Shown here one piece after another: positions 13,597 through 60,118 of a DNA stretch of 64,000 nucleotides. The notes under the pieces were generated by a model. That model was not told the origin of the DNA and did not search any database. It saw only the letters and a list, made by a program, of their open reading frames with translations. Source of the stretch: a virus; the IMG/VR virus record IMGVR_UViG_3300021197_001233, positions 1 to 64,000 of that record; one strand, given 5' to 3'. The translations under genes and the position numbers were made by a program. Within the stretch, counting starts at the first letter, position 1. Every line of letters begins with the position of its first letter.

Positions 13597-13670
13597 GCAC
13601 CTGTAGCTCAACAGGATAGAGCAGCGCACTTCTAATGCGCAGGTTTCAGGTTCGAGTCCTGACAGGTGTA
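13597..13670 (+). tRNA. tRNA-Arg, anticodon TCT
   Basis: A full cloverleaf: acceptor GCACCTG/CAGGTGT (first pair G-T), D-arm AGCTC...GAGC, anticodon stem GCGCA/TGCGC with loop CTTCTAA, T-arm TCAGG-TTCGAGT-CCTGA, discriminator A, no encoded CCA. It reads AGA/AGG-type Arg codons, which are frequent in the phage genes here. Confidence 0.9.
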
Positions 13671-13683
13671 CAAATTAAATACA

Positions 13684-31700: not shown

Positions 31701-34700
31701 CTGTAGTAAAGCAGGGTCATATCGAAAAGCTTGTCCACGAGAACCAGCTTGGCGTGGGAGGGGATGAGATGAGCACTGGAGGGTTTGGCGATGGTGTAGA
31801 TTCCCCAGAGCTTCTTGGATTTTTGCACTTTAGGCACAATATGCGCCTTCGCGTAGGAGGTGATGGTTTTTACCCAGCCATTCAAAATACGGACCTTGGC
31901 GCGTATACTGGTGAAGGAGGAGCCCATTATGGTTTGTTGGGTCTAAAAAATAAGTACGATAAAACAAGAGCAAGGATTGTAGGGTGGATTGACAGCGGTC
32001 TGGGATATATCGGAGACAACTCTGCAAACATATACAACACAGGCGGCGTCAATCAGCCCACCAACAACCCTGATCGCTGGAATAGTGGATTTACAATCCT
32101 TGACGGTGCGGGAGGTATTGGTGGAAACCCCACGGGTGGCGAGGCCATGCTTAGATATGACGCGGGTAAGTCCTGCGCCATGGGCACTGTCAATGGGATG
32201 ATGCTGTTTACGGGGTACATAGGACCTAGAGACACGGTACTCCCCTCTAAGATTAAGGACGGGACAAAGCCCCCATTTGATCTTGATGCCCCTACACTGA
32301 TTTTTTATAACGATAGATTTAGCAACTACTTCAATAAGTTCGGTCAGGACAGCATGATGGCGTTCCTTGGGCAGTTCAACTATACGTCCCTGAGCAATGC
32401 AGGCGGGTTTACCTGGGCGCCAGGCGGCATATTCCCCAACCCTCTTACGAAATCACTGTACTATACCTCGCCGCTTGATTTAGGGCTCGGGGACCAGGGG
32501 CAAAACATTCTTGACGAGGACAACTTTCAAAACCATGATTGGAGGGATGATTATAGGGATCAGGTCGTGCGCAATCAGCCCGTCGTTGAGATTCTTGATG
32601 TAGGTGGTGGTACTGTCCTTGCCGACGAAATACGGTCTGGAGGCAGGTCCTTTAAGACTAAGGCCAATCATTCCTTTGGCATTGTGTTCTATGATGAGAG
32701 AGGTCGTGCTGGCCGCGTCAATCCGATAAAGATAGACGGGAGCAGTTCCCTGTTTGTAGAGGGGTATGACGGAAGGGACAGTGACGAATTGGCTGGTAGG
32801 GTGTCTATCAAGCTCAAGCTTGACGACGTGGTGGAGAGGGTCCCCGACTGGGCCCGTCATTATCAGATCGTATATGCTGGCAACTCCACGTACTCAAACT
32901 TTATTCAGTACTCTGCAGGGGGCGCCTTTGTTGGCACCTTCAACGAGGGGGAGGCTGAGCAGGATAGTCAAAACATATATGTGTCTTTGAACTACCTGCA
33001 GGGAAACAAGGATGTGTCGTATACCGAATCGTTCGGTGCTGTATCTCCATCTGGCACTAAGCAGATGTATGTCCACAGCCCAGGCGATAAGCTCAGGGTT
33101 ATATCATACTTTGTGTCAAACCCGATTGATGAGAATGGAGACATCACTGGGAGGGTGTACCCTAGAGACTATGAGTTTGAAATAGTAGGTGTTGAAAATC
33201 TTTCAGGCAACCCAGAGATCAACCCTCTCCGCAGAACGTTCACCGACTCCTCTGACTCCGCAGTTATGTCTGACGCGAAGACTGGTCAGTTCCTTGTCCT
33301 CAAGAATAACCCTTTTGCGGCTGGATTCTCGTATGACGATGTAAAGAATGGTGAGAATGACCCATCGTCGAACAAGCACTTCTGGAACAGTATCTGCGTA
33401 GTTGAGATATACTCGCCATCTCAAGAGGTTGCGGATGAAGAGCAGAGGCTGTACTACGAGATTGGCCAGGTGTATGACATCGGCATCTCTGACGGGAATG
33501 TTGTAAGCGGCTCTGACGGGGCCACAGTAATGGATTCTGGTAGGCCATACTACAAGACTAACCCTGTGCTTCTTGAGAAGGGGGACGTATGGTTTAGGCG
33601 AGTGCCTATGGCGGTGCCTAAGTTTGATACCGATCCAGACTCTGAGACGTTTGGTAGGTTTAGGAACTTGATTACATACGATAAGGATAACGAGGTGGGC
33701 AGCACCCCAAGGTTCCAGAACTATTTCCTTGAGACAGAGGCGTTTAACGACACCTTCTCTGGGAATGATGTACTGTCTAGAGGTAAGCCAAACATCATAG
33801 ACGACGAGTTCGGCAGAAGCAGAAAGAAGGGGTCTATCGCGTTCTCCGATAAGCACGTATACGATAAGTCCAAGCTTCGCTTCTCTTCATTTAAGGAGAA
33901 CAGCTTCAAGGACTTCCCTTCTGAGCACGGACCAATTCGGTACTTGATGGACAATTACGATTCTATCGTGATGATTCAAGAGAGAAAGACCAGTGCCATT
34001 CCAGTTGAAAGATCTATTCTCAGCACCGCCGACGGGTCAAATAGCCTCGTACAGAGCAAGGAGCCGCTCGGTGTTCAGAGCTTCTACGCTGGCGACTACG
34101 GGTGCGACAAAAACCCAGAGTCGGTAATCAGGGCTGGGGGCGCGATATACTTTGCATCGCCCAAGTCCGCCGAGGTATACCGCCTCTCTATTGGCGGCGG
34201 CATCGAGGTCATCTCATCTATCGGTCTTAAGTCAGAGTTCTACAAGACGTTTAGATATGTAAATAGCTCTGCTGGCGCTAACGAAAGAGTTTACGTACCA
34301 ACGGGTTATGACCCAGTAAATGACGAGTTCCTTATCACCATTAGAAAGGAGTCGTTTACAGCCCCTTCGGGACCTGTTGAGACCCAGGGAGTCATAGGCC
34401 CTGTGGCTGAGGACACAAATGATGATGTGTTTGGGGGTGTAGATGAAGTTATCTCAGGTTGCACATACATTGCCTCTCCTAACTTCAACCCTTTTGCTCT
34501 TGAGGATGATGGGAACTGCTTCGTTTTAGGTTGTACTGACCCCATATCTCTTAACTACACGCAATCTCCGCAGTTGGGGGTTGAGGTTATATTATGTGAT
34601 TCTGGCTCGACCACCTTGGTGGGAAAAGAGTATTATAACAATCCGTTTGATTGTGCCTGCAGATACTTTAACCCGTGCATCTTTGACGCATTCTCTTTGT

Positions 34701-36070
34701 TGCCTGACGGCAAGGTTAATTACAGCGACGTAAATGAGTTCCTTGGTCTGCTAAGTAACTCAACGTTTACTGTGCCAGATATTCCAAATGAGTATTTCCC
34801 AAATAATGCTCAGCAGCTGTTTGCCACTGGGGTTATAAACAACTTAGGCCTTGACTTTATGTGGACTGCAGGCTTGGCCGTTCAGCCACCAGCGTCTCTT
34901 GCTGGTCAGCCGTCTACATCGTGGAACTTTTCAAATGACACATTTGACAGTGTGGCATATAGATTCGCTGTCGCGGCGTACACTGAAGGTCCATCTGCTG
35001 CAGAGATGCAGGATTACTACAGCAACTCTGGAGATCCAGCGTATACAGGCAGTATTGAAGAAATTTGGGCTCAATCTCCAGACGTTGAGTGGATGGACAC
35101 TTACTGGAGAGACGTCAATGAAGACGTACCTATCTGGCAGGCATCATGGCACCAGGCCAACCACGTCACACTTAGCGGAGGTGACGATCTTTCTACCTTT
35201 AACGGGGCTCCAGAGGGTTGCGTGTACATTGGATGTACCGACAATGTGGTGCCTGCCCTGAACTACGACCCTCTTGCGGACGCTAACAACCCCTGCGGGC
35301 AATCCGTCGTCGGCCCTGGAAATGATTTATTTAGGACCCCGACAGATGAAAACGGAAATTGCCCAGACGGGCTATCTGAGTGTTGTGAGCCTGGTGAATG
35401 CTACACTCCATTTGAGTGTCTTGAATGTGGGAACCCATGTTTAGATACTCCCGTGTTCCATACGTTCCCTTGCGCGGACAACCCTGTGAGTCCGCTTATG
35501 GGCTATACTAATGTCAATCCAAATGATGATACCTATGGATTGGGTAGCTTTATAACGAGTGAGCTTGGTTCATTCCCTAACGCAGATTATACATTTACGC
35601 AGGACGCTAGCAACCCAGCGGGCATGCCTGTCGGCTCTCTGTTCGCCACAAGTCAGGCCGCCCTACAGGAGCTTAGAGACCTTGTGAGCATGCACTACCA
35701 GCAGTATCAGACCAACTGCGTGTCAGATGCGACGCAGTTTGTTGGGACTTACTACACTGAGAATGTACCATGTGACGACACCTACAACCCGCCGCCGACT
35801 GCTCCGATTGATTACTACTACTGGATTGACTGCTGTCAATACAAGTGCCAGGGTAACTATCCAACGAACGCAAGCGGGGCTATGGACAACACGGGTAACG
35901 CTGATGACTCTCTTAGAACTGAAGATTTTGTGCTTCCTCTGGGTGGTGGTACGGGTATTCCTCCATGCTACAATGGCGACTATCCATCTACAGACTATAG
36001 CGTGGGGGATCTAAACCCAGACTTTGACTACAATCCTAACGTAAGCGGTAATCAGCCACAGGACGACTAA
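28712..36070 (+). CDS. Giant tail stabilisation/muzzle-type protein, 2452 residues
   Basis: Begins MIEKKRPRKLNSSKDSRVRG, typical of tail needle-hub or stabilisation proteins (P22 gp10-like) that follow the tube gene. The body is beta-rich with many Asn, Asp and Gly. Residues 1290-1330 hold SFGIVFYDERGRAGRVNPI, a signature-like stretch, and near 1790-1860 APSGPVETQGV follows a propeller-like region (GAIYFASPKSAEVYRLSIGG). From about 1915 on there are Cys-rich modules GCTYIASPNFNPFALEDDG, GCTDPISLNYTQSP and GCVYIGCTDN, and a final Cys-rich tail. It is unusually long for this role. Confidence 0.65.
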   Translation: MIEKKRPRKLNSSKDSRVRGADEMYDALNVQVSSDYDGAGSDADGNAGGNVGVLKPAYGNSVNQYFEQFSEQSFERSSSLKVLGNVVDDENDVIYYFVWSSVPKEQGIYAYDPKGFLPDVSGNSNMIKVVYKSPLLNFPSDGFVKGDVVVIQDEGDENQKVKPVIYFTDGVNEPRSINVFLAYNKVRNRMTPGDGGVQSSNTFADDHFDQQDFIHACPKTPVHPPKAFFRNDPNSRSSNFEGISGYQFAYQYIYKGGEESALSTYSDIIIPPAYLQQGAKSSANLSQTNECVIKIPRGSVKDPASVDANGYLTGSVIADATSANSIINRYLPRNVEKIRILVREGNRGAFSVVETIPSGVDDFVTTSDGQDPRGLYTDLQYIFRNDRVKTGFSKDEANKPFDSVPQVAGAQTVASNRLMYGDYVTGYDNVDVSASATITYNSRPEDFKSIDITVRPTIDLLDQDLSVNNRRSGIYFDVDNFPADNIGLSDDSTVDVTITVRPKRNWHIYNANNSFHGSRHIGNLSPNVIEDNNTQNPGNPSTTIQPYQVSPNLASDGVDGVDGVTGEPGTFGSSRSRTNLSSNHSLDTIWGANNGVTLGPSNPKWKTVASQHDVDPNEDGTLSTSTIISGSNSEVPVRYGTSAANPFILRGRPLLFSVSIKLKSNISGSNYKKLLRDFISRAMTWDRDAVDANGDPLYPREVQFNGTFYDSNGVSPYFEILDIKNDYSYTIDEGLDGGNANSTIEDVTGGANKINVTTKGDDRKHLIVAVGNGNIVKEGANPADLRYLPPCGYFIVNRATPTFRLTSRDDIDPTATYGVLQLDLRSLNDVETLTCVPFVDADLWEDKGMKLRNVPEAGSGFGTIFNPGNAEEIAQGQSNQPRGPEGTVYWWNSGIFNSGRFSDPDNWGLRDVTVWQFQTMVIDSWWCFSKEYLVRKPIPEFLFTPLYSDYKRISNGFTSATEATAADIEGVSAGDAVGAPGDLSVDTTNNGVLRNAAVVKQGHIEKLVHENQLGVGGDEMSTGGFGDGVDSPELLGFLHFRHNMRLRVGGDGFYPAIQNTDLGAYTGEGGAHYGLLGLKNKYDKTRARIVGWIDSGLGYIGDNSANIYNTGGVNQPTNNPDRWNSGFTILDGAGGIGGNPTGGEAMLRYDAGKSCAMGTVNGMMLFTGYIGPRDTVLPSKIKDGTKPPFDLDAPTLIFYNDRFSNYFNKFGQDSMMAFLGQFNYTSLSNAGGFTWAPGGIFPNPLTKSLYYTSPLDLGLGDQGQNILDEDNFQNHDWRDDYRDQVVRNQPVVEILDVGGGTVLADEIRSGGRSFKTKANHSFGIVFYDERGRAGRVNPIKIDGSSSLFVEGYDGRDSDELAGRVSIKLKLDDVVERVPDWARHYQIVYAGNSTYSNFIQYSAGGAFVGTFNEGEAEQDSQNIYVSLNYLQGNKDVSYTESFGAVSPSGTKQMYVHSPGDKLRVISYFVSNPIDENGDITGRVYPRDYEFEIVGVENLSGNPEINPLRRTFTDSSDSAVMSDAKTGQFLVLKNNPFAAGFSYDDVKNGENDPSSNKHFWNSICVVEIYSPSQEVADEEQRLYYEIGQVYDIGISDGNVVSGSDGATVMDSGRPYYKTNPVLLEKGDVWFRRVPMAVPKFDTDPDSETFGRFRNLITYDKDNEVGSTPRFQNYFLETEAFNDTFSGNDVLSRGKPNIIDDEFGRSRKKGSIAFSDKHVYDKSKLRFSSFKENSFKDFPSEHGPIRYLMDNYDSIVMIQERKTSAIPVERSILSTADGSNSLVQSKEPLGVQSFYAGDYGCDKNPESVIRAGGAIYFASPKSAEVYRLSIGGGIEVISSIGLKSEFYKTFRYVNSSAGANERVYVPTGYDPVNDEFLITIRKESFTAPSGPVETQGVIGPVAEDTNDDVFGGVDEVISGCTYIASPNFNPFALEDDGNCFVLGCTDPISLNYTQSPQLGVEVILCDSGSTTLVGKEYYNNPFDCACRYFNPCIFDAFSLLPDGKVNYSDVNEFLGLLSNSTFTVPDIPNEYFPNNAQQLFATGVINNLGLDFMWTAGLAVQPPASLAGQPSTSWNFSNDTFDSVAYRFAVAAYTEGPSAAEMQDYYSNSGDPAYTGSIEEIWAQSPDVEWMDTYWRDVNEDVPIWQASWHQANHVTLSGGDDLSTFNGAPEGCVYIGCTDNVVPALNYDPLADANNPCGQSVVGPGNDLFRTPTDENGNCPDGLSECCEPGECYTPFECLECGNPCLDTPVFHTFPCADNPVSPLMGYTNVNPNDDTYGLGSFITSELGSFPNADYTFTQDASNPAGMPVGSLFATSQAALQELRDLVSMHYQQYQTNCVSDATQFVGTYYTENVPCDDTYNPPPTAPIDYYYWIDCCQYKCQGNYPTNASGAMDNTGNADDSLRTEDFVLPLGGGTGIPPCYNGDYPSTDYSVGDLNPDFDYNPNVSGNQPQDD

Positions 36071-36079
36071 CACGAAAAG

Positions 36080-38053
36080 ATGAAGACTTTTGCATTTAAA
36101 AACTCTCAGAAGTACTGGTCTACCAGGTACTCGTTCTCCCCTAGGAACTACTCTAGGCTAGACAGGGATATGTTTACGTCTCACCCTCAGGGATCTGATG
36201 CAATGTACATCCACGGCCCGAAGGCCACGGCGGAAAAAAACACATACTACGGAAACAAGACGTCATCGAGTGTTAAGTTTACATTTAACAACGACCCAAG
36301 CCAAAACAAGATTTACAAGAACCTATCTCTTGAGGGGTCGTTTAACGATAAAAACTTTCTAGGCACATTTAAGTCGAACGACTCTACAGATCCAGGTCAG
36401 TCTAGGGTTTCTAGTGTAAGGGGATGGAAGGAGAAAGGGGCTCATCTTCATGCCAATATAGCTAGGTCGCCAAATAGCGGGAGAGCTAACATCGTGCCTG
36501 TGGGTGTGGTAAGAAGAGTTCATCAGGCCTTCTTCCCTGAGTCTACATCTGCGCTTGGGGCTATGTGGTCGGACACTGGAAGGACTCAGTCCGAGTGGCT
36601 TAATAACGACTCTATATCCAGGGTTTTGGCTGCAGATGGTGATGGGCCGAATGGATTGGCCGCCATTTTGCCCTACGGGTTGGATAAGGCTTACATGGCC
36701 AACAGCTCGTTGCTGTTATCAGACCCAGACGCGCTCGACCCAGAAAGCTCTAAATACCTGTTTATGGAGATAGACTTTTTCCCTGGGTACAAGGACTCAT
36801 CTGGAAGTGCTAAATACATATTCGCCGCGTCTGACGATTTTGATCCGTCTACGATCTATGGCACCCCATACGACTCTGTAGAGGCGCTATTTCAGAGCGA
36901 CATCGGGCTATGTGCTTTTGCAAAAAATAAGGCTACTGGTAACTTTAAAAAGAGGAGCTACACTCCGAGCAATGATGGGGGCGAAGGGTTTACTTTTGAC
37001 CCAAGTTTTCCATACTCCATTGATTTTCAGCCCACCAAAGAGGGCCTTTTTGTTTGCTACAACGGACCTATTAGTGGTGATGAAGAGCCTGGAGGTGGCG
37101 GAGACGATCCAAATACTGAGACAGAGTTCACCTGCGCCGACATCTCTATCTCAATAGCTGACGGCACGGTTGGTCAGACTGTCACTGCCACAGCAACAGG
37201 TGCAAATATTGTGTCTATCGTCCCCCCAGAGTATGCCGAAGGCACCGCCTCCTACACTATAAACTTTAACGTTCCAGGCGGATACACAAATACAGGTGAT
37301 CCGCTCTCATGCACCGCCAACGGTGTTGGAAATGAGCAGGTGGATGATCCCGACGACTCAGGAGACAATGGCGGCACAGATGGTGGTGGCGGCACAGATG
37401 GTGGCGGGGATACGGGTGCACTCCCAACATTTACTTGCACCGATGCATTCTTCCGTGTTACACCGAATGGAATTGCAGGCACCACGGCAGAGTACAACAT
37501 TGATGAGGGCACTGTAATTGGCTCGATATCCCCCGACATCTATCAAGTGGGAACTGCAGATTATACCGCTAATATCCAGGTTCCTGATGGTTATAGCAAC
37601 TCAGGTGAACAAATAGTATGCACGGGTAGTGCGACTGCTTTTGTCGAAAACGCTGAACCCACTGCCGACCTCAACGGCGACGGCGCGGTTGCAACAAATG
37701 ACCTGCTTATCTTTTTGCAAAGTTTTGGCAGCAATGAAAGCGGTCCTGCAGACCTCAACCAAGACGGGGCGGTTGCGACGGGCGACCTCCTGATATTTTT
37801 AACAGCATTTGGGTCGATTCTCAGAAGCGATATAAGAGGTGGTGCTGGTGTCCCTGCCTTTGTGTCTGCAACAAACGCTGTTATATCCTCTGCAGACCCT
37901 ATAATCGTTTATGCTGTAACCCCAGAGAATGTAAACGGGGAGGCGGCTAGAGGCAACTACGCCGATGTAACCCTTACATTCCCAGGGTCGAATTTTGAAC
38001 TAGACATCGTAAACCTTGATTATGAACCGACTCAGCTCGATCATAGCAGATAA
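36080..38053 (+). CDS. Tail protein with tandem dockerin-like repeat, 657 residues
   Basis: Begins MKTFAFKNSQKYWSTRYSFS. KYWSTRYSFSP and YYGNKT resemble an element of crAss-like stabilisation proteins, so it probably completes the same structure as the giant upstream protein. Residues 350-520 hold two related beta repeats (TFTCTDAFFRVTPNG, YTANIQVPDGYSNSGEQ). Residues about 530-578 are two EF-hand-like dockerin repeats, DLNGDGAVATNDLLIFL and DLNQDGAVATGDLLIFL. Dockerins bind calcium and cohesin partners in secreted enzymes; in a phage tail protein this is unusual. Confidence 0.65.
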   Translation: MKTFAFKNSQKYWSTRYSFSPRNYSRLDRDMFTSHPQGSDAMYIHGPKATAEKNTYYGNKTSSSVKFTFNNDPSQNKIYKNLSLEGSFNDKNFLGTFKSNDSTDPGQSRVSSVRGWKEKGAHLHANIARSPNSGRANIVPVGVVRRVHQAFFPESTSALGAMWSDTGRTQSEWLNNDSISRVLAADGDGPNGLAAILPYGLDKAYMANSSLLLSDPDALDPESSKYLFMEIDFFPGYKDSSGSAKYIFAASDDFDPSTIYGTPYDSVEALFQSDIGLCAFAKNKATGNFKKRSYTPSNDGGEGFTFDPSFPYSIDFQPTKEGLFVCYNGPISGDEEPGGGGDDPNTETEFTCADISISIADGTVGQTVTATATGANIVSIVPPEYAEGTASYTINFNVPGGYTNTGDPLSCTANGVGNEQVDDPDDSGDNGGTDGGGGTDGGGDTGALPTFTCTDAFFRVTPNGIAGTTAEYNIDEGTVIGSISPDIYQVGTADYTANIQVPDGYSNSGEQIVCTGSATAFVENAEPTADLNGDGAVATNDLLIFLQSFGSNESGPADLNQDGAVATGDLLIFLTAFGSILRSDIRGGAGVPAFVSATNAVISSADPIIVYAVTPENVNGEAARGNYADVTLTFPGSNFELDIVNLDYEPTQLDHSR

Positions 38054-42050: not shown

Positions 42051-45000
42051 ATGGTTAACGAATTTGACAACACGGACCCATTGCAGCTGAGCGAAACGCC
42101 ACAGGCAGCGGTCCCAGAGCCAGTGCAACCGCAGCAGCCTGTACAGCAGCAACCTCAAAGAGAGCTCACTAACGATGACCGCATTGATTTCTACAGAGGC
42201 AAGGGGTACTCTGACGGCCAGATTGTTGATATACTTGGTGCGTCTGGAAAAGCCACCAGGGAGCAGGCTCAAGGTATTATGCTTGCTCAGTACGAGAACC
42301 AAAGAAGAGAGGTGCTTGCAGAAAATGAAAGGCTCAAGAAGGAACAGGCCGATGCAGAGAAGCACATGATCGAGAGGCAGCAGTCCCTCGATGCACTCTT
42401 AAAAAAAAAAGATTCAGCATCGGACCCTTCCACTTTGCCTGGTGGCGCGGAGGTCAGAGCTGATCTAGGACTTCCAGCTGCGGAACCTAGAGACGTAGAC
42501 GCAGAGGTTAACGAACTTGTACAGCAGGAGGGGTTTGAAAGCTTAAAGTACGAGAACTCTAGACCAGAGGATTACGACACTCCAGATCTTCTCAATATGT
42601 ATCAGGCTAATGGTCAGCTTGCTGATCTTGCCGTGAACATGTCTGCATCTAATGCAGCTATTGAGGCGTTGAAATCTGGTGATAATCAAGAACTTAGAGA
42701 GGCTGTAGAGGCTGCTGACAACGAGGCCGTTCAAGAGCTTTTTCAGAACTACATCACTGCTGACCCTAGGTCTAGCGACTACGGGGAGCTTAAGCAGGAG
42801 CTCAGTCAGGGACTGTTTGACCTGTACGATGAATCCAACAGGCAGTCGTCACTGGCTATGCAGCAGCTTCAGTCTATCAACGAGGAGATTGGACTGCCAT
42901 GGAACTACAGTAATGATAGTGAGATAGACAGGGCTCAGGCCATGCTTGAGTCGATGAGAATCAGAGAGGACGGGGAGCGGACAACTCAAAGGTATCAGGA
43001 CATGCTGTTTAGCCAGCGTATGGCTAGGGCTAGGTACGACGAGCTTGAGGACATGCTACCAGATTGGCTTGTGGCCAGATCGGTGGCGGCGGGCAACTTC
43101 GCCAACAACATGCTCCACGTTATGCCAAATCAAATCGCTGGTCTGGCATTCGATCAGATCGGGGACAGAGATAAGGCGAATGAGTACTTCGAAAAGGCGC
43201 GAAGAGTCTCTGACTACAACCAACAGCTCACAACAGAAAGAAACAAAAGAAGCTACGAGTTCACAGATGATGAGCTGAACACGGGAATTTGGGAGAGCAT
43301 TGTCGGAGCGTGGAACGGGGAGGAGGATAAGGGTTGGGGCCTTGTTGCAAGAAAGGCTGCATCCACCTTTGAGGACGTGTTCCCTGACGTTGCTTTTGCC
43401 GTCGCCACCATGGGTGAAGGCACGGCCATGAAGCAAGTCGCCAAAGAGGGCCTTAAAGAGGCCACGGAGGAGAGCGTCAAGAGGCAGCTTAAGAGAAAGG
43501 TTTTGCTTGGTAATGGTATTAGCGCATCTACTGCTGCGACGTTTGGTATACGCTCTATGGGGGATACATACGACTCGGTATTCGATGACCCTACAAGAAC
43601 CCTGAATGAGAAGATGTTCTTGGCCACATCTGTCGGTGTCGCCGAAGCAACAATGCAGTTTATCTTCAGGGGCGCTGAAGCTGGCCTTGCAAAGGGCGGA
43701 ACGGCCCTGAGAAATTTTGCTTCTGGCGCCGCAGAGAAGAACTGGAAGCAGGCTATGAGGGATGCACTGAAAGGAGTTACAAAGAGGCAGATTGCATTGG
43801 GTGGGGCAAAGCAGAACGCTGGTGAGTTTTTTGAAGAGGCGATTATTGAGGCTGTGGATCAGTCAGTTAGAATCGTTCAGGATAAGATGGCTGGGCGCAA
43901 GACAAAGGGTATTGATGGGAATGCCATTATGGACGCTGGTCTCGCTGGTCTTCTTGGTACGGGACCGCTTACAACACTTCAGGCCTCATCAGCTATGATG
44001 GCCAACCACAAGGTGAAAAAGACTCGGTCATACGTTGTTGAGCAGCTTAGAAATCTTGACAGAGATATGATGCTCACGACGGACGCTTCTATTCTTGGCG
44101 GAATGAAGGCTAAGCGTAGAGAGCTTGAGGGGTATCTCAATCAACTTGAGGGTATGTCCGAGGCTGAATATCACAAGCTCACAGACAACGAAAAGAAGCA
44201 GATCAACGCAATCCACAGGGAGCTTGCCACTACACGAGATCAAATCAAAAGAGAGAAGAATCCAGACACCAAAAGAAGACTGGAGGAGAGGTTTGAAGGG
44301 CTGTACAAGAGGAAGGTTGATATCGAAAAGGCGGCGGAGTCTAGAGCTTCTATGGCACCAGCACCTCCTCTTCCAGACGCTGAAGGGAATGATGTTGCTT
44401 CAAACGAAAGAGATGTAGACACGGCTACCGAGCAGGAGCACGCCGCTATGCCAGAGGAGCAGGATCAAGAGGCTTCAGATATCACAGAGGCGATTGATGA
44501 AAAAGTTGACGGGCATGTTGCGTCTCACAGGCGTGCCGTGGAAAGGGCTGCCTCAGATCCCGAGAACTCAACTAGACACGCTAGGACTGCAAAGTCAATG
44601 CGCACAAAGGCCAAGAAGCTTTTGATGGCTGAGGGAATGACCGAGGCGGAGGCTGAATCAGAGGTCGATAGAAGAATCGGTACTGCTCAGGCGGAGACAG
44701 AGACCAAGGGCGATAGACCAGCAAGGTCTGTTCGAATGGGCCTTGTTGGTGACACCGACGTAAATGCTGACTGGATTGGAGACGGTCCAGGGCAAATACC
44801 GCTTCCTGTTGTGGCTCAGATAGACCGCATGAAGCGAGCGTTTGGTAAGCCTCTCGATTCTATGGGGGTACACCTTCAGACCCACCTTGATGCAGAGTCG
44901 TTCTCGGACGCTACGGGGACGGGTAAGAACACGAGAGGGGTATACGATCCGTCTACGAAAACAATTCACCTCAACCCCAACAGCGGAGTAAAGGATGTGA

Positions 45001-48000
45001 TTGAAGAGTTTGGTCATGCTGCATTCAGATCCATCCTTAAGTCTGACTCTAAGTTCTCTCAGAAGGTTTACGATAACATCTTGTTTGAGGCTGGCATGGG
45101 CGGTGGTGCGTTCGGAAGAAAGGACCCCAAGACTGGCATGATTGTCCTTCCTAAGAACTTTAGAGAGGATGAGAATCTCCAGCAGCTTGCAAAGGAGAAT
45201 CCATTTGCATTGGCAGTTCTTAAGACGGAGGATCTTTATCCAGACTACGACAATGCTCGCCGAAGGGAGGAGACAATACTAGAGGCACTCAGGGAGTACG
45301 CCACCAACCCCAGTAAGTTCAACGCTGCGTCGAGACGTGGGCGAGGAAGAACTAGGGTTGATCAGCTCAAGGCTATCGTAAACAGGGCTATGACTAAAGC
45401 TGGGTTCAGAGGCAACTTTATTTCCCCTGACTCTGGCGTAGACTTCTACAGCTTTGCAGAGAGGTTCAAGCTTGCCACTGAAGGCGTGGAGACTGACGTT
45501 ACTATGGACGAGTCTGACTACACAGCTCAGACCAACATCGAGAACTCCACCCCCAGAAAGAGGAAGAACGCCAAGAAGAAGGCCAAAGAAAAGATTTTGG
45601 CTAGGACTGGTGAGTCACCACAGGACGCCATTAAGAGGCACAGGAGGGAGCAGGAGGCTAAGCGCAGGAGAGAGAGCGCTAAAGCGGTAGATAACTTCGA
45701 AAGCACTCTTGGACGCCCAGAGCCGTTTGAGTCGAGAGACGGTGGCGCCTTTGATTACTTGAGAGACACTGAGGTGTTCTACGAGTCCGTTCCTCCACTG
45801 AGCGGCGGTGTGGTTAATCAGGTGCCTAGAAAGAAGTCCTTCAAGGTAAAGGACTACTACCACTTCAGGAACTGGTACAACTATATGACCAGGAATCAGA
45901 CGGATGACAACATTAGACGTATGTACTACGTCAAGGATGGCGTCAAGAAAATGATCAATCCGCCTAAGATTGCAATCGACAAAGAGACTGGTAAGCCTAA
46001 GTATATCTCGGGGCCAGAGACTTGGGTTCAGCGTCAGGTTAGGCTGAACACAGAGGCGATCGAAAGAAGGGATCAGGCCAGAAGAAGGGCATTCAAAAAC
46101 TCCGATGATGTAGAGCCAGGAGAGTCTCTCGGAGACGGCAGTGTCCAGCTTGAGTCCAGAGAGGGTGGTGCGTTTGATCCTGAAACGTTTACGTTCGGAA
46201 GAGATACGTACGACATTGCTGAGGCTCAGCGCCTGTCATCTAACAATGAGGTTAAGACGATGCCGAATGAAAATCTGAAAAACCTCAGGATGCCATTCGT
46301 CCGCTTTAATCCTGAATTTGTCGACGCCGCTGATTTGTCGAGACCTATTATACTTGCCCCATACAGAGATCAGGGCCTCCTGATGATCGACGGAAATCAC
46401 AGGGTCGAGAAGGCAATCAAGGAGGGAGTGGATTTGAAGTACGTCCAACTAACTAAGGATCAGACAGATAAGATCCTCAACACTGGCGCCTTAGAGTCCA
46501 GAGAAGGCGGAGCCTTTGACCTCCCAGATGGAGTCAAAGAAGCTACAGCATCTGAATATGCTGACGCCATGGCTAAGGCCTTTGAAGCTGCAGAGAGAGA
46601 GGGCGACAAGAAGTTCCTTCAGGTAAGCAGGGTCAATGAGCAGCAGGCTCAAGAAATCCTTGATGGAGGCGGTCGTTTGTTTATCTCTGATGACGGAATG
46701 GCTGGATCGTACGTGCAGGGAGACGGCTATATGGGCGGGCTGTTTAAGTCCCCAGACTCCAAGCAGAGAGGGGTGGCAAAGGTTATGCAAGATGTGCGTG
46801 ATAAGTTTGGAGGAAAGTACTTCGACGCTTATGGCACAGAGCTGGAGTCTATCTACGTAAAGAATGGGTATAAGCCAGTAGCAAGAATAGAGTTTGTGCC
46901 TGATTACGCCCCAGAGGGATGGGATGCCCCAGACTCACCGCTTAAGAATCAGCCAGATTTGGTCTTCTTTGTGAAGGGTGATGGCGAAGTGGGTGGCGGC
47001 AAGAGGGTCGATGATTATGATGCTGGAATGGCCGAGGCCAAGAAGCTTCTGCCCGAAAGCGAAGGTAGTCTTGAGGCTAGAGCTGGCGGGGCGTTTGACT
47101 CACTGAACATGGAGGAGGCTAAGAGAAAGGGTCTCCCGACAGATAACATCGAGTCAATCAGCGGTGCTCAGATACGATTCTTTGGATTTGACAGAACCGT
47201 GCCTACGGTCATTGAGGATCTCAACCACCGAATCGCTTCAGGCATACAGTACATCTTCAATAAGCGCGTCCCGTACAAGGAGGGAGATGCTAGGCTCATC
47301 ACGGCCCATAGAAATATGGACATGGCAAAGCAGGAGTACAACGGCCTGAAGAGGCTCGCTATGGCAGACTCCAAGTCATCAAACCCCCTTGGGTACATTG
47401 CCATTGGATTTAGCCTCAACGGTGAAGCGTCTACCACTGGGAACCCAGACGTATACTCCTATCTAATCAAAAAGTTTAGGCAGAAGTTTGACGGGGACGA
47501 ACTTATCGGCAAGACAAACACTGCCGTAAACAGCATCACGAAAAAGTACAAGGCCCCCATGATCAATCGTATTCAGCAGAAGGCGATCGAGGAGGGTAGA
47601 AACGATGTGTCAAGCGCCATCGACATCGAGTTCAGCGATAACGGCCAACCAATCACCGCCTCTGCAAACATCACAACAGCAGAGCAGGCTGCTTTTGTCC
47701 TTGATATGCTTGAGGACGCATCGGCTCCATTCACATTCCAAGAGCGCAACTTCTCGTCTGGAAGGTTTACCCAGCGCATCACACCCATGAAGGACGTGAT
47801 GGACAAGGTCATTGACCCGCTGTTTAAAGACGCGGATCTCGGCACTGCGGTGGCGTTTGTAAAGGTGCCATACAAGATTGAGGATGGCCAGGTCAAGGGC
47901 TTTGATATTGTTGAGGTTCCAGGAGATCCGTTCGCTGGTGCGATTGTGGTTGAGCCTGGATTTGACAATCAGTTTGAGGGCCACCGTCTTGCCGAGAGGC

Positions 48001-51000
48001 AGTACAGACTTGAGGATATCATGCCAGACTACTCCATGGCCATGGGTACAAGGGAGGTTACAGATCCAGAGACTGGTGAGAAGACTCGCGTGCCAGCACG
48101 CCGTCGCCGCTTGAGTTCAGCTGTGGCTGCGGCTACAAGAGATGCCGAGGGGCCAATGAAAGACTTCGAGGCCAAGGTCAGGGAGAAGGTGTCCAATCAG
48201 GCCGCCAAGAATGTGTTCAAGGGTGTCGTCAATATCAACTACGGAGACGTAGGGGCGATGGAGGAGGACATCTACATGGGTAGCAAGTCAGCAGTTCAGA
48301 GACCATCCGCCACGACGGACATTGCTATGAATGCTATGGAGTCTAGAGAGGGAAGTGTCTTTGAGTCTAGGGCTGAGGATGCACCGACTCCAGGAAGACC
48401 TGACGGTCAGTTCCAGCAGAGAGATCAGACCAGATTTGGTAGATTTAAAGCCAAGTGGATTCGCAGGCTGCAGGATAAGTACAGCGACATCATGGGCTTG
48501 CAGGAGGATGTAGAGACATTCTTGGGCAAAGCCGTGAGAGAGGACGAGGACTTCAAGATGGCCGAGGAGCTCATGTATGGCAAGACAGCGAGCGACCTCA
48601 AGAAGCTTGATCAAAAGATCGAAAGGCTCACAGACAACATAAAGGCCAACGGGGTCAACGTGGGTGAGCTTACCGATTACCTCTACGCTCTCCACGCCAA
48701 GGAAAGGAACGACGTCATCTTTGAAAGAGACGGTGTTGAGAACGGCAGTGGTATGTCGAATGCAGAGGCCTCGGCAATCCTTGACGGGATCTCTGAGGGC
48801 AAGAGGGCTGCCTTAGACAGCGCCCTGAAGATCGTAAGAGAGATTCAACAGGACACTAGAAGCACGATGGTAGAGTTTGGGCTGGAGACAGCCGAGACTG
48901 TTGATGCGTGGGAGAGCCTGTTCGAGAACTACGTACCGCTTTCGGGTATTGCTACTGACGAGTTCAGCAGTGATAAGACCGCCTACCCAACAGGCGGTGC
49001 TGGTATGCAGGTACGAGGCCCTATGACCAAGAGGGCTGCGGGTAGAAAGAGCAAGGCGGACAACCTCGTGGCTCAGATCATTGCGCAAAACTCTGCCGTA
49101 AAGATCCAGGCCAGAAAGAACGAGGCGCTTGGAACGCTTCACACCCTCATTACAAACAATCCAAACCCAGCAATCTGGGAGATCGTTGAGGACGCTAAGT
49201 TCGGAGACCCGTCTGTTGTGCCAGTGAGAATTGGTGGCAGGCAGGAGTTCATCAAGTTCACTGAGCCTCAGCACGCTGAGACGTTAAAGAACATGAACAT
49301 CCCGAAGACGGTGTGGTTGGCCAAGGTGCTTTCGCCTCTCAACAACTGGCTAAGACGCTCATTTACAACGCTTAACCCCGAATTTGTAATCTCCAACTTC
49401 TCAAGGGATATCCAGTCTGCACTTTTCAATGCAGCTGCTGAGTCTGAGATTGAAGGCGGTCAGATACTTGGGGCACAGGTTATGGGCGACATGGCAAGGA
49501 TGGTTGGGCCATCTATGAAGGCTTTGTTCAAAGAGACTAATCCCAACTCACTTGGCAAACTGTTTAAGGAGAATCCAATCATTGGTAAGTACTACCAGGA
49601 GTTTGTTGAGGACGGCGGGCAGACTGGATGGGGATATCAGAAGAACCTCCAGGAGATAGCTGCAGATCTAGAAAGATCCACAACAGATAAGTCTCGGGCG
49701 CAGGAAGTGCTTGGTGGTGTGAGGGAGAACACAGTAGACATGGTGGAGGGGGTCAACGATGCATTTGAGAATGCGATTAGGCTGTCGTCATATATTGCCG
49801 CAAGAGAGAACGGAATAAGCAGATCCAAGGCCGCACAGTTTGCGAAAAACATCACGGTGAACTTTAACAAGCACGGTGAGTACGGTCAAGTTGCAAACCA
49901 GCTCTACCTATTCTTCAACGCATCGGTTCAGGGTACCTCAAGACTCGGTAGATCTCTTGTCACACTCAAGCCGCCCAAGGCTCCCGACGGGTCATCCCGT
50001 GAGTGGTATCAGAGAATTAACACCGCACAGAAGATGGCGGCTGGACTGACTGTATTCTCAGCGATGCTTGCCCAGGTGGGTAGAGCCATGTCTGACGAGG
50101 ACGAGGATGGCACCCTGTACTGGGATAAGATTCCAGACTACGTCAAAGAGAGAAACCTCGTCGTTATGTTTGACGGGAAGAACTACTTCAAGATACCGCT
50201 TCCTTATGGTTTCAACATGTTTGCCAATCTGGGTACAGGGATGGTGGATCTTGCGGCAGGGGCTAAGTCTTGGGATGAGACGGGATGGTTCTTGGCCAAC
50301 TCGTTCCTTAGCTCGTTCTCCCCGATCAGCTACGGGCAGTCAAGAGACCTTTTCACCTACGGCACCAAGGCTGTCGTGCCTACAGCACTTAAGCCAGCCA
50401 TTGAGGTAGCTACGAATGAGTCGTATTTCGGAGGTCCAGTGTATGCAGAGCAGCTGCCATTCGGCGCTCCTAAGCCAGAGTCGCAGATGTCGTTTAAATC
50501 ACCTCGTGCCGTACAGGACTTCTTTACATGGATGAACGATGCTACGGGTGGATCTGCTCAGGTACCAGGGGATGTAGATATCAACCCCGACAAGTTTTGG
50601 CACGTATTCGACTACTTTATTGGTGGCGCAGGACAATTTGTGGGCAGGACCGCATCCACAGCTAGGGACGCGGTAGTTAAAGCCACGAATGATGAGCTTG
50701 AGGTCTCGTTCAATGATGTCCCGCTCTTGCGTAAGATTTACGGCGAGCCCTCCAAGTATTACGATATGGAGAAGTTCAAGGAGCGCGAAGTGGTGATCAA
50801 GCAGCTTATGAGAGAGGCGAAGGACCCTGATGCGAGGCGTCTTGGAGAGAACAGATACAAAGGCGTAGGAACTCTTGACAAAGCGTTGAAGGCGGTAAAT
50901 AAGCGGATGAAGCTTATCAGAAAGGCCAAGCAAAACGCCAGAAACATTAAGGACTACGCTGAAAGACAGATTAGGATTCAAGAGCTTATGGATATGGAGC

Positions 51001-51056
51001 GTGGCCTCATCATGAAGTTCAACAAAATGTACGACGATGTCAGAAAAGAAAACTAA
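42051..51056 (+). CDS. Giant multidomain polyvalent virion polyprotein, 3001 residues
   Basis: Begins MVNEFDNTDPLQLSETPQAA. Visible parts: a Gln/Pro-rich start; a helical, small-residue region around 440-670 that could enter a membrane (STAATFGIRSMGDTYDSVFD); coiled coil 670-760; a degenerate metallopeptidase-like stretch near 980 (VKDVIEEFGHAAFRS); segments starting at about 1227, 1368 (ParB-like, LLMIDGNHRVEKAIKEG), 1482 (possibly GNAT-like, YVKNGYKPVARIEFVPDYAP), 1675 and 2097; and a C-terminal part like large polyvalent protein domain LPD38 (NPEFVISNFSRDIQSALFNA, NQLYLFFNASVQGTSR). Each of the last five segments is preceded by a conserved linker. It is probably ejected with the DNA. Confidence 0.8.
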   Translation: MVNEFDNTDPLQLSETPQAAVPEPVQPQQPVQQQPQRELTNDDRIDFYRGKGYSDGQIVDILGASGKATREQAQGIMLAQYENQRREVLAENERLKKEQADAEKHMIERQQSLDALLKKKDSASDPSTLPGGAEVRADLGLPAAEPRDVDAEVNELVQQEGFESLKYENSRPEDYDTPDLLNMYQANGQLADLAVNMSASNAAIEALKSGDNQELREAVEAADNEAVQELFQNYITADPRSSDYGELKQELSQGLFDLYDESNRQSSLAMQQLQSINEEIGLPWNYSNDSEIDRAQAMLESMRIREDGERTTQRYQDMLFSQRMARARYDELEDMLPDWLVARSVAAGNFANNMLHVMPNQIAGLAFDQIGDRDKANEYFEKARRVSDYNQQLTTERNKRSYEFTDDELNTGIWESIVGAWNGEEDKGWGLVARKAASTFEDVFPDVAFAVATMGEGTAMKQVAKEGLKEATEESVKRQLKRKVLLGNGISASTAATFGIRSMGDTYDSVFDDPTRTLNEKMFLATSVGVAEATMQFIFRGAEAGLAKGGTALRNFASGAAEKNWKQAMRDALKGVTKRQIALGGAKQNAGEFFEEAIIEAVDQSVRIVQDKMAGRKTKGIDGNAIMDAGLAGLLGTGPLTTLQASSAMMANHKVKKTRSYVVEQLRNLDRDMMLTTDASILGGMKAKRRELEGYLNQLEGMSEAEYHKLTDNEKKQINAIHRELATTRDQIKREKNPDTKRRLEERFEGLYKRKVDIEKAAESRASMAPAPPLPDAEGNDVASNERDVDTATEQEHAAMPEEQDQEASDITEAIDEKVDGHVASHRRAVERAASDPENSTRHARTAKSMRTKAKKLLMAEGMTEAEAESEVDRRIGTAQAETETKGDRPARSVRMGLVGDTDVNADWIGDGPGQIPLPVVAQIDRMKRAFGKPLDSMGVHLQTHLDAESFSDATGTGKNTRGVYDPSTKTIHLNPNSGVKDVIEEFGHAAFRSILKSDSKFSQKVYDNILFEAGMGGGAFGRKDPKTGMIVLPKNFREDENLQQLAKENPFALAVLKTEDLYPDYDNARRREETILEALREYATNPSKFNAASRRGRGRTRVDQLKAIVNRAMTKAGFRGNFISPDSGVDFYSFAERFKLATEGVETDVTMDESDYTAQTNIENSTPRKRKNAKKKAKEKILARTGESPQDAIKRHRREQEAKRRRESAKAVDNFESTLGRPEPFESRDGGAFDYLRDTEVFYESVPPLSGGVVNQVPRKKSFKVKDYYHFRNWYNYMTRNQTDDNIRRMYYVKDGVKKMINPPKIAIDKETGKPKYISGPETWVQRQVRLNTEAIERRDQARRRAFKNSDDVEPGESLGDGSVQLESREGGAFDPETFTFGRDTYDIAEAQRLSSNNEVKTMPNENLKNLRMPFVRFNPEFVDAADLSRPIILAPYRDQGLLMIDGNHRVEKAIKEGVDLKYVQLTKDQTDKILNTGALESREGGAFDLPDGVKEATASEYADAMAKAFEAAEREGDKKFLQVSRVNEQQAQEILDGGGRLFISDDGMAGSYVQGDGYMGGLFKSPDSKQRGVAKVMQDVRDKFGGKYFDAYGTELESIYVKNGYKPVARIEFVPDYAPEGWDAPDSPLKNQPDLVFFVKGDGEVGGGKRVDDYDAGMAEAKKLLPESEGSLEARAGGAFDSLNMEEAKRKGLPTDNIESISGAQIRFFGFDRTVPTVIEDLNHRIASGIQYIFNKRVPYKEGDARLITAHRNMDMAKQEYNGLKRLAMADSKSSNPLGYIAIGFSLNGEASTTGNPDVYSYLIKKFRQKFDGDELIGKTNTAVNSITKKYKAPMINRIQQKAIEEGRNDVSSAIDIEFSDNGQPITASANITTAEQAAFVLDMLEDASAPFTFQERNFSSGRFTQRITPMKDVMDKVIDPLFKDADLGTAVAFVKVPYKIEDGQVKGFDIVEVPGDPFAGAIVVEPGFDNQFEGHRLAERQYRLEDIMPDYSMAMGTREVTDPETGEKTRVPARRRRLSSAVAAATRDAEGPMKDFEAKVREKVSNQAAKNVFKGVVNINYGDVGAMEEDIYMGSKSAVQRPSATTDIAMNAMESREGSVFESRAEDAPTPGRPDGQFQQRDQTRFGRFKAKWIRRLQDKYSDIMGLQEDVETFLGKAVREDEDFKMAEELMYGKTASDLKKLDQKIERLTDNIKANGVNVGELTDYLYALHAKERNDVIFERDGVENGSGMSNAEASAILDGISEGKRAALDSALKIVREIQQDTRSTMVEFGLETAETVDAWESLFENYVPLSGIATDEFSSDKTAYPTGGAGMQVRGPMTKRAAGRKSKADNLVAQIIAQNSAVKIQARKNEALGTLHTLITNNPNPAIWEIVEDAKFGDPSVVPVRIGGRQEFIKFTEPQHAETLKNMNIPKTVWLAKVLSPLNNWLRRSFTTLNPEFVISNFSRDIQSALFNAAAESEIEGGQILGAQVMGDMARMVGPSMKALFKETNPNSLGKLFKENPIIGKYYQEFVEDGGQTGWGYQKNLQEIAADLERSTTDKSRAQEVLGGVRENTVDMVEGVNDAFENAIRLSSYIAARENGISRSKAAQFAKNITVNFNKHGEYGQVANQLYLFFNASVQGTSRLGRSLVTLKPPKAPDGSSREWYQRINTAQKMAAGLTVFSAMLAQVGRAMSDEDEDGTLYWDKIPDYVKERNLVVMFDGKNYFKIPLPYGFNMFANLGTGMVDLAAGAKSWDETGWFLANSFLSSFSPISYGQSRDLFTYGTKAVVPTALKPAIEVATNESYFGGPVYAEQLPFGAPKPESQMSFKSPRAVQDFFTWMNDATGGSAQVPGDVDINPDKFWHVFDYFIGGAGQFVGRTASTARDAVVKATNDELEVSFNDVPLLRKIYGEPSKYYDMEKFKEREVVIKQLMREAKDPDARRLGENRYKGVGTLDKALKAVNKRMKLIRKAKQNARNIKDYAERQIRIQELMDMERGLIMKFNKMYDDVRKEN
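45726..48368 (+). repeat. Five repeated interdomain linkers ESR(E/D)GGAFD
   Basis: Inside the 3001-residue frame: FESRDGGAFD (45726-45755), LESREGGAFD (46149-46178), LESREGGAFD (46491-46520), LEARAGGAFD (47070-47099) and MESREGSVFESR (48336-48371). The codons differ at many synonymous positions, so the peptide rather than the DNA is conserved. The intervals (about 141, 114, 193 and 422 residues, then 904 to the end) correspond to separate domains. Confidence 0.85.
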
Positions 51057-56668: not shown

Positions 56669-58495
56669 TTACACTGAATTTTCTGAAGAATCAACTCCTG
56701 TGGATAAGAAATTCGTGAAGACAGGCATTGTACCCTTCTCTTCAAACTTAATCGACTCGAACAGAGGGCGTTGTCTTGCCCACGAGAAAAAGCCTGTGTG
56801 GGAAAGATTCATGACAAGCTTGTACGGCTCGTCCAGCGGTGTAGGCCTACCGCCTGTCTCTGTCTCGCGCACCTTTCGTACGTGTAACTCGCTCAGCTTA
56901 CGGATGTTATGATCTGCCGATTGAACCTTTCGGTGAATCGTCATGAAGCAATCCGCTCTGTTTACGAACTTTCCACCGCCCTCTGTATCCTCGGCGTACG
57001 GGGCAACAGGTAGCCCGTCAGCACCCTTACGGCGCTGCGCCTCAGTGACAGCGTGCATATTCAACCATACGGCCACGTTGTTGGACTTGCTAAACGTCAA
57101 GAACTCCGACGCGGCCTCGTAGTGGTAGTCGTGTACACCGATGGATGTGTTGCGCATATCCAGCTTGAGGCTGTTGTACGGGTCAATAAATACCGCATCG
57201 ACCTCTTGCTGTCGCATGATCTTCTCCATGAAGACAATGATATCTGAGTAGGAGTACACGCTCTCGTTGCTGATAACCACGAAATGCTCCTGCACCCAGG
57301 CGTATGCCTTCTTGCGCTCGAAGTAGTTCATGTCTGCGACTTTCTTGTCCATAGCGAACTGCATGAGCTGCATCTTTACGGATGCGGTCCTGTTCTCACT
57401 GGAGTATATAATCCATTTCCACCCGTGCCTAATCGAAGCATTGGCGATAAGGTACAGGGCTGTGGTGGTCTTACCCACGTTGGAGTGCCCATTGATGATG
57501 ACGAACTCCTTCTTGTATCGGAAGTATTCGTCGAGGGCGGTGTCCCCTGTGTCAAGGCCAATCTCAATCTTGCCCTGAGAGTAGTCGTCGATCCAGCGGA
57601 AGTCCTCGTCGTCGGACGACACGAAGGACATGTCCCCGTCGTTGATAAGCATCTCGCGCTTGACGTTCTTCTCTTCATCGATGAGGTCACGTATGGGCAT
57701 AACCTTACCATTCTCAATGCCATCGCGGATCGTAAGCTTAGCCATCTCTGGCGAGTCGATGTCTCTCTTGGAGATCTCCCTGAATAGGATACGTACCGCC
57801 TCGTCCTCCTCCATCTTCCCTGCCCCGATGTATCCGCCGCATAGTCTAGCCGCATCGAAGAGCTTTCTGTGTTTGTCCCCGTCCTCGGCGTTGCGAATCA
57901 TTCGCGCGGCCAGGTTGAGCTTCATGTAGTCGGTGTAGTCGTACGCTTCGTTGGTGGGCACCTGAGCCTCGGCTCGCTCTGTGGTGAACGCCCCAAACTT
58001 CTTGTTCTCGTCCTTGATGATGATGTCTGGGTCATGCGACTCCCAACAGGCTCGTGACTCATTAACACCTGACTCGTCTAGCCCAAGGCCGTGTGTTCTA
58101 TCGAAGTACTTGATGAGGGCTCTAAAGTGATCCCTGTGCCGCTCTGGATTGGTGATCTGGACCAGTGCCTTGACCCCCTCTCCGCTAGGCGAAGTCCAGC
58201 ATGAATGAATGAAATCATCCGTTGCAAGGGCCGTCTTGGTCGCGTTAACGTCAACGTGGTCAAAGTCCAAAACAATAAATCCCGAATGCTCGAAGAGCGC
58301 GTCATCGGCACGCGACGAAAACTCCCCGCTGAAACAAACAACGGGGAGCGCCTTTTTCTTCTCTTTGTCACCAGTCCTAACATCAGCTACTAGTGTACTC
58401 GACTTCCCATCTCGAATCCTCTCCAGAGCTAACTGTAGTGGAATGTGATGAGGTGTTGTCTTGTCGAATACGTCTTTGAATATCGTTACTTGCAT
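56669..58495 (-). CDS. Primase-helicase, BT4734/VirE-like N-terminus and DnaB-like ATPase
   Basis: I start at the ATG at 58495 (MQVTIFKDVFDKTTPHHIPL) rather than the TTG at 58507. Residues 1-200: SGFIVLDFDHVDVNATK and CWTSPSGEGVKALVQI, a BT4734-like primase/polymerase-type fold. Residues 330-560: Walker A IINGHSNVGKTTTALYL, Walker B DAVFIDPYNSLKL, and EDTEGGGKFVNRADCFMTIH, a RecA-like DnaB-type helicase. One chain could prime and unwind the fork, as T7 gp4 does. No DNA polymerase is in the window. Confidence 0.8.
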   Translation of the reverse strand: MQVTIFKDVFDKTTPHHIPLQLALERIRDGKSSTLVADVRTGDKEKKKALPVVCFSGEFSSRADDALFEHSGFIVLDFDHVDVNATKTALATDDFIHSCWTSPSGEGVKALVQITNPERHRDHFRALIKYFDRTHGLGLDESGVNESRACWESHDPDIIIKDENKKFGAFTTERAEAQVPTNEAYDYTDYMKLNLAARMIRNAEDGDKHRKLFDAARLCGGYIGAGKMEEDEAVRILFREISKRDIDSPEMAKLTIRDGIENGKVMPIRDLIDEEKNVKREMLINDGDMSFVSSDDEDFRWIDDYSQGKIEIGLDTGDTALDEYFRYKKEFVIINGHSNVGKTTTALYLIANASIRHGWKWIIYSSENRTASVKMQLMQFAMDKKVADMNYFERKKAYAWVQEHFVVISNESVYSYSDIIVFMEKIMRQQEVDAVFIDPYNSLKLDMRNTSIGVHDYHYEAASEFLTFSKSNNVAVWLNMHAVTEAQRRKGADGLPVAPYAEDTEGGGKFVNRADCFMTIHRKVQSADHNIRKLSELHVRKVRETETGGRPTPLDEPYKLVMNLSHTGFFSWARQRPLFESIKFEEKGTMPVFTNFLSTGVDSSENSV

Positions 58496-58748
58496 TGTCT
58501 TTGGCAATCATTAAGAGAATCATGTATCCTGCCAGGTCTTGCAGGGTGTCTTCTGTGTCGTCGATCGGACCTGAGTTCTTGATGCGCTTGAGTTTGTCAT
58601 CAATTCTTGCTTTGATACTTGACACTGCGTTTACCTGCGAGAATATGTTGAGTGGCTCCAAGGCCGCATCCCCATACTTCGCATTCTTTTGAAGCAGTAA
58701 GTCCTCTAACTTCTTGCACTTCAATTTAATTTTCTGTCTTGTGTTCAT
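58383..58748 (-). CDS. MazG/DUF1599-like all-alpha protein, 121 residues
   Basis: Begins MNTRQKIKLKCKKLEDLLLQ. LLLQKNAKYGDAALEPLNIF, then IKARIDDKLKRIKN and DTEDTLQDLAGYMILLMIAK are the helices of a MazG-like/DUF1599 (Nmad1-type) nucleotide-binding fold, with E/D-x-x-D metal ligands. It may hydrolyse or help modify nucleotides. Its last 37 residues overlap the primase-helicase start by 113 bases in another frame, an unusually long overlap here. Confidence 0.65.
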   Translation of the reverse strand: MNTRQKIKLKCKKLEDLLLQKNAKYGDAALEPLNIFSQVNAVSSIKARIDDKLKRIKNSGPIDDTEDTLQDLAGYMILLMIAKDNASNDIQRRIRQDNTSSHSTTVSSGEDSRWEVEYTSS

Positions 58749-59356: not shown

Positions 59357-60118
59357 CTATACTGTAAACTCGGCAAAGAATCTTTCAGTGGGGTTGGGGT
59401 CATCTAAGTAGTTTTTAATGTTTTCTAACGCTTGGTGGAACTTCATCTCGCCCTTGAACAAAGTCTCATCAGAGCACTTGACGTCGGCGGGATAGAACGG
59501 GTACGCTTTCTCCTGCACCACCCAGTAGTATTCTTTTAGATCAAATACCTTGCAGTAGATGTACGCCTGGATGTCATAGCAGAAGCTGTTGACGTCATAC
59601 CTGAACTTGTCGATCGATCGTGAGGACTTGGAGTCAACGATGAACTGACCATCTTGTAGGCAGTCGAGGAATCCTTTAAGCGGTACCCCGTCAATGTCTA
59701 CGTTGAACTCCACCTGAAACTTACCGCCTGCAAAACGCTTGTCATACAGGCCGCAGTCCTTCAGGCGCTGGATCATCTCTTCTGCCTGCTTCCAATCTTT
59801 TTGTCCGACGATTGTTTTCCCCATGTGCTTTTCCGCTTCTTCCTTTTTCCACTCTCGATAGCGCTTAGTATTACGGGGGAACTTACCACCAATGCTACTG
59901 ACGATATCCATATCGTCCAAAACATGATATGTGTCATGTGCTTTCTCTGGTTCAAAAAGGAGCATATCGTACAAGCTCCCAAAGGTTAGTGCTTCTGACT
60001 CTTTCTTGAGCTGCCCCTTCATGTACATCTCCCAAAGACGCATGTCTCCAAGTGCATGCTTGAGTGAGGAGTAAGACAGGTGTGGCTTACCAGTTGCTGC
60101 AGTTAATTTATCTCTCAT
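59357..60118 (-). CDS. PD-(D/E)XK exonuclease (RecB/Cas4-like), 253 residues
   Basis: Begins MRDKLTAATGKPHLSYSSLK; HLSYSSLKHALGDMRLWEMY is the usual N-terminal helix of this superfamily. Core: ALTFGSLYDMLLFEP, VEFNVDIDGVPLKGFLDCLQ, then GQFIVDSKSSRSIDKF (D-x-K) and FCYDIQAYIYCKVF with the Q-x-x-x-Y motif. It probably resects DNA ends; with the annealing-type protein at 60463-61017 it would form a two-part recombination system. Confidence 0.75.
   Translation of the reverse strand: MRDKLTAATGKPHLSYSSLKHALGDMRLWEMYMKGQLKKESEALTFGSLYDMLLFEPEKAHDTYHVLDDMDIVSSIGGKFPRNTKRYREWKKEEAEKHMGKTIVGQKDWKQAEEMIQRLKDCGLYDKRFAGGKFQVEFNVDIDGVPLKGFLDCLQDGQFIVDSKSSRSIDKFRYDVNSFCYDIQAYIYCKVFDLKEYYWVVQEKAYPFYPADVKCSDETLFKGEMKFHQALENIKNYLDDPNPTERFFAEFTV

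Follow-up and report, generated by a model that had tools for sequence, protein, structure and literature searches.

Recurring linker peptides at the module borders of a phage polyvalent protein: exchanged cassettes and putative recognition sites

Which constraint keeps a nearly identical short peptide in front of each of the last five segments of one very large phage protein? This question is raised by an open reading frame (42051..51056, + strand) of the window, i.e., of the whole stretch of DNA that was analysed, which spans 64,000 bases of a virus record 64,217 bases long. As the genome corresponds to this 64,217-bp record, the term giant phage, used by the initial annotation for the protein's relatives, was found not to apply. 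The frame is open for 3001 amino acids and its product was assigned to the polyvalent proteins of phages and conjugative elements, a class described by Iyer et al. 2017 (PMC5512222), with which it shares its large size, domains of the LPD38, ParB-like, GNAT and zincin types and a position in the phage late region. The multi-domain character of this class is represented here by LPD38, a GNAT fold, a zincin-like fold and a weak ParB match, and the PHROG matches of the protein (phrog_14770, phrog_616 and phrog_10691) are all of unknown function. Its late-gene context is likewise that of a polyvalent protein, as terminase, portal and virion structural proteins are encoded upstream on the same strand, with a 1015-residue protein carrying a glucosaminidase domain and a holin being the immediate upstream and downstream neighbours. 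Among the preceding genes are those for a 2452-residue structural protein (phrog_14478; 28712-36070), devoid of Pfam domains and of ESR linkers, and for a 657-residue protein (36080-38053) with a short N-terminal match to the crAss muzzle C-domain (E 1e-8) as well as a weak one to dockerin. Elsewhere, a 612-residue primase-helicase-like protein combining BT4734-like and DnaB-type helicase domains is encoded at 56669-58507 (- strand), close to a DUF3799 PD-(D/E)XK nuclease at 59357-60118.

The five ESR-type linkers noticed initially were borne out, all on the + strand: FESRDGGAFD (linker 1, residues 1226-1235, 45726..45755), LESREGGAFD twice (linker 2, residues 1367-1376, 46149..46178, and linker 3, residues 1481-1490, 46491..46520), LEARAGGAFD (linker 4, residues 1674-1683, 47070..47099) and MESREGSVFESR (linker 5, residues 2096-2107, 48336..48371). 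All five matches to the pattern E[SA]R.G[GSA].F in the six frames of the window (frames of at least 100 codons) lie within the polyprotein, the motif being absent from the other window proteins of this length, and with a score of 75.0 the linker is the best four-site word of the polyprotein, the best words of local shuffles reaching 66-70. The protein thus possesses a recurring recognition-type peptide at its domain joints, as a self-processing polyprotein is expected to. A further ESR at residue 763 (AESRASMAPAP) may constitute a sixth joint: an automatic search identified AESRASMAPAPP (residues 762-773, 44334..44369, + strand) as the polyprotein's best match to its own last-boundary window ESRAEDAPTPGRPDGQ, and this tentative joint is kept in the two closely compared IMG/VR relatives L002 and L007. 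Whether the linkers are exposed had been left by the initial annotation to structure prediction. In two AlphaFold2 models, which cover linkers 1-4, linkers 1, 3 and 4 are predicted to be disordered, as they lie in stretches mostly of pLDDT <50 beside modelled modules, and linker 2 sits, together with the ParB cassette, within a stretch that is poorly modelled.

The linkers delimit five modules, all on the + strand, which the initial annotation had taken for separate domains. The first, D1 (45756..46148, FRNWYNYM), is modelled mostly at pLDDT 55-79, is found in all clade members and remains unnamed. It is followed by a mobile cassette (46179..46490) whose ParB-like nature, as initially proposed, is weakly supported by a match to the unnamed family phrog_17560 (E 7e-5) and a DGNHR motif. 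The next cassette (46521..47069), initially regarded as possibly GNAT-like, was confirmed by fold to be a GNAT acetyltransferase (Z 9-10.4 against GNAT enzymes), and the module of about 412 residues behind it (47100..48335) is 91.4% identical in DNA to that of L002, found no Pfam match and is the second one to stay without a name. For the C-terminal module (48372..51053), which was also recognised by an alignment (A1) and has relatives encoded on 264 stretches in IMG/VR, the LPD38-like assignment was verified by a Pfam match to LPD38 at residues 2691-2876 (50121-50678, E 9e-34). In IMG/VR, the search for further cassette relatives returned one locus for the ParB cassette and three for the GNAT cassette (L097-L099), the latter having another relative in a Microbacterium phage minor capsid protein.

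Comparison with L002 and L007, which carry the same linkers as the window and other cassettes, revealed that cassettes are exchanged at the linkers, i.e., at the module borders. L002 is organised as D1, AANQ cassette, 412-residue module and C-terminal module and lacks the ParB cassette, and in L007 D1 is followed by ParB and AANQ. The ParB cassettes of the window and L007 share 91.7% DNA identity next to 74.0% in the adjoining D1, and the AANQ cassettes of L002 and L007 share 95.1%, as compared to 76.8% in D1; the switch points between the sequences of the three phages fall inside the linker. Thus linkers do flank swapped domains in related proteins, for which the initial annotation had suggested an alignment, and its notion of a standard joint used in domain shuffling is substantiated. 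L097, which also carries the GNAT cassette, possesses KAQAM before D1 and after GNAT in place of the ESR peptides.

On the basis of these swaps the linker could be understood as an inert spacer, kept solely since homologous recombination taking place there shuffles cassettes. The abrupt change from 92-95% identity in the cassettes to 74-77% in their flanks is what such a spacer would yield, and common descent of the linkers is suggested by their codons, with the Arg codon AGA (92 of the 203 Arg codons of the polyprotein) present in every window copy and TCN common to all those retaining Ser. What speaks against it is the divergence of the remaining codons. Over the ten linker pairs of the window pS amounts to 0.64 and pN to 0.16, in line with the initial statement that codons differ at many synonymous positions, and corresponding pS/pN values were obtained for the linker copies of L021 (0.77/0.10), L008 (0.70/0.17) and L005 (0.99/0.32, with one Arg position encoded by CGT, AGA and AGG); here, pN is biased low, as the sites were chosen by peptide, and the weight rests on the saturation of pS. 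In several lineages three linkers resemble one another and differ widely in their codons. With synonymous sites near saturation it is the peptide, not the DNA, that is conserved, so DNA-level homology is not what is maintained, and recent gene conversion among the linkers was ruled out on the same ground. Judged from these codon comparisons, selection acts on the linker peptide. A role confined to recombination accounts for the swaps, not for this selection, and is considered unlikely.

A peptide under selection raises the question of what it is selected to fit, and here the more distant relatives are informative. Linker sequence varies among 14 diverged phages, yet the first and the last linker are alike within each phage: L005 uses VRFAYGKRK, IRYSAGKRK and IRRSAGKRK, L008 VRMSFGRRK, VRLSSGRRG and HSLSSGRRN, L021 three copies of ESRKF (LESRKF type), L004 RRAKG, RRAKG and RARG, and L006 FESRDGSLFD and FESRSRSVFD. 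Joints were located by borders anchored in homology (before D1 and before the C-terminal module) and by middle borders; such windows were needed because automatic word discovery recovered the linkers in the window, less clearly in L002 and not in the divergent phages. With hand-set windows the similarity between first and last linkers was 375 as compared to 256 +/- 19 upon permutation, with 0 of 20,000 permutations as high, and fixed windows gave p 5e-5 (25/55 residues), 3e-4 (30/65) and 1.3e-3 (40/80); the controls were null, both for reversed windows (p 0.94) and for windows shifted by 60 residues (p 0.52). When each of 43 proteins was searched automatically with its own last border, 13 ranked among the top four as compared to 4 expected (KS p 5e-4), and several of the best matches were the linkers themselves. 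If a single reader served all joints, they would be expected to agree within a phage even though their DNA diverged long ago.

That reader does not have to be a protease. The linker could equally be a docking tag that binds a scaffold, the portal, the internal core or a chaperone, so that every module stays anchored in the head or is guided through the tail uncut, and exposed repeats, one per module, that vary together within a phage are accounted for just as well. However, the known packaging signal of P1 DarB lies at its N terminus (PMC9024508), the linker is absent from the other window proteins and no partner that binds it was identified, which leaves this reading improbable.

A putative reader was identified within the polyprotein itself. 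Residues 1-912 contain no recognised domain, and residues 913-1160 (44787..45530, + strand) form a predicted zincin-like metallopeptidase domain, modelled by AlphaFold2 with a core pLDDT of 80-91. An alignment of 15 proteins, which mostly share 19-38% identity with that of the window, revealed E985, E986 and H989 (EExxH), Y1063, E1073 and E1074 to be invariant, an order (EExxH...Y...EE) which we take to resemble that of the HExxH-Tyr-Glu peptidases. Nearly all of the top VIA fold matches are to zincin proteases or to domains with a zincin fold, at Z 5-9, a middling range near the level reachable through a common arrangement; they comprise PPEP-2 (Z 8.6, rmsd 3.6, 141 aligned residues, 14% identity), domains of the anthrax lethal factor family (Z 7-9), collagenases (near 5) and the plasmid ArdC (5.0). 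Since these values are middling and the best Foldseek match has an E of only 0.097, the call of a zincin fold rests also on the sequence invariants. The domain is predicted to be folded like the PPEP / M34 zincin peptidases, with the difference that the first His of HExxH is a Glu in all clade members examined; with Glu as first zinc ligand throughout, peptidase activity is uncertain and the domain is referred to as zincin-like, not as an active zincin. It precedes the first linker in every protein of the D1 clade. Among 43 dereplicated wider relatives, 11, with L063 among these, contain neither HExxH nor a zincin of the D1-clade type; L023 was initially counted as zincin-less, as the regular expression missed it, yet the zincin is present.

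The joints of these wider relatives take another form. [FY]S[RK] joints were found in C-module proteins of Vibrio phages, Stx-type coliphages and others (e.g., MFSREV and GPYYSRTSS), and L063 possesses several FSR joints, for instance after ART-PolyVal and before PBECR5. Pfam-defined domains of other lineages were found to have the [FY]S[RLK] peptide beside 9 ends (1.6 expected) and 8 starts (1.8 expected), in three proteins with 25 partly homologous domain instances, and scrambled words showed no enrichment at these places. The form x[FYE]S[RLK] was considered as a universal border marker, as its count at the starts of BLAST segments was initially three times that expected (452 vs 150); upon leaving out the C-module border and clustering the starts the excess was gone (1.12-fold, p 0.19), and because of this failed test the claim of a general joint is kept modest.

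As for the route by which the protein would act, it is very likely a multi-effector protein that is carried in the head and enters the host together with the DNA, packaging and injection being judged by analogy. JC1 gp69, a DarB-like protein, was detected in virions with 51 peptides (PMC9144972), and BcepIL02 gp70, a member of the same DarB-like group of Bcep22-type phages, has a C-terminal module homologous to that of the polyprotein (E 5e-41), which suggests that the latter is packaged too. The N-terminal and middle domains of these DarB-like proteins differ from those of the polyprotein, and in BcepIL02, where the search covered the [FY]S form, no ESR linkers were noted.

Considering this, it is proposed that the linkers are exposed recognition peptides at the module borders and would serve as proteolytic processing sites which separate the modules, with the zincin-like domain before linker 1, or another phage or host protease, as the putative reader. 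As all joints would have to fit the same reader, those of one protein would shift together as lineages diverge, and since every border would bear the same peptide, recombination at the linker could add, remove or swap cassettes with processing unharmed. Indirect support for the maturation cleavage suggested by the initial annotation comes from the selection on the peptide, the co-variation within phages, the predicted disorder of the linkers, the zincin-like domain and the homology to the JC1 group. Points against processing are the change of His to Glu, zincin-less relatives such as L063 and the N4 virion RNA polymerase, an injected protein of about 3500 residues which is comparable in its features (an HExxH domain and a loose connection between its domains): this polyvalent protein, which has a motif of the metallopeptidase type, is packaged uncut (PMC5512222), and it was purified at full length (PMC12633501). 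Weighing both sides, we give an about even chance to the reading as an injected polyvalent polyprotein in which the linkers are recognised, most likely by a protease that releases the modules. A further-reaching idea, put forward tentatively as possible rather than probable, is that phages carry effector polyproteins which process themselves; cleavage peptide and protease would be adjusted jointly in each lineage, and the peptide would double as a universal socket for cassette exchange.

Instead of the embedded zincin, a protease of the host could cleave the linkers once the protein is injected, or a prohead protease could do so while the head matures. Both head proteins and ejected proteins are cleaved by prohead proteases at short motifs, such as AXE in SPN3US (PMC10052503), and a separate protease would suit those wider relatives from which the zincin is missing. 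However, the motif is not common to the other proteins of the window, as would be expected for substrates of a T4/phiKZ/SPN3US-type prohead protease, and no prohead protease was recognised among the late proteins tested, many of which match nothing; this route is seen as very unlikely.

For release by proteolysis, the reading preferred here, the linkers supply what had been missing. The 2017 report (PMC5512222) proposes, on other grounds, that embedded metallopeptidase domains process polyvalent proteins, so that the single effectors are set free; it gives no cleavage sites, the word linker does not occur in it and the passages considered name no joint peptide, whereas the present protein has lineage-specific joint peptides, i.e., exact and testable positions. 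While the protein class is already described, the joint peptides are new: neither joint peptides of the polyvalent family nor their concordance within phages nor their use as exchange points was found in the literature searched, mostly papers outside subscription. The linkers may provide a means to divide many unannotated giant proteins of phages into functional units, and they suggest how polyvalent proteins gain and lose effector cassettes with the rest of the chain intact.

Some further observations were made alongside. The sole tRNA of the phage is a tRNA-Arg(TCT) (13597-13671), which reads AGA, the commonest Arg codon of the polyprotein and present in each of its ESR linkers. The Microbacterium phage minor capsid protein (L100 1328-2902, OQ190478.1) carries its relative of the GNAT cassette C-terminally (about 40% identity), likely a case of a capsid protein extended by an effector domain. 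Limnohabitans phage DC33 (L101 4732-14109, PQ492659.1) encodes a 3125-residue polyvalent protein with a GNAT relative and a HETAH motif; its record of 39 kb is filed under Inoviridae, a taxonomy which looks wrong.
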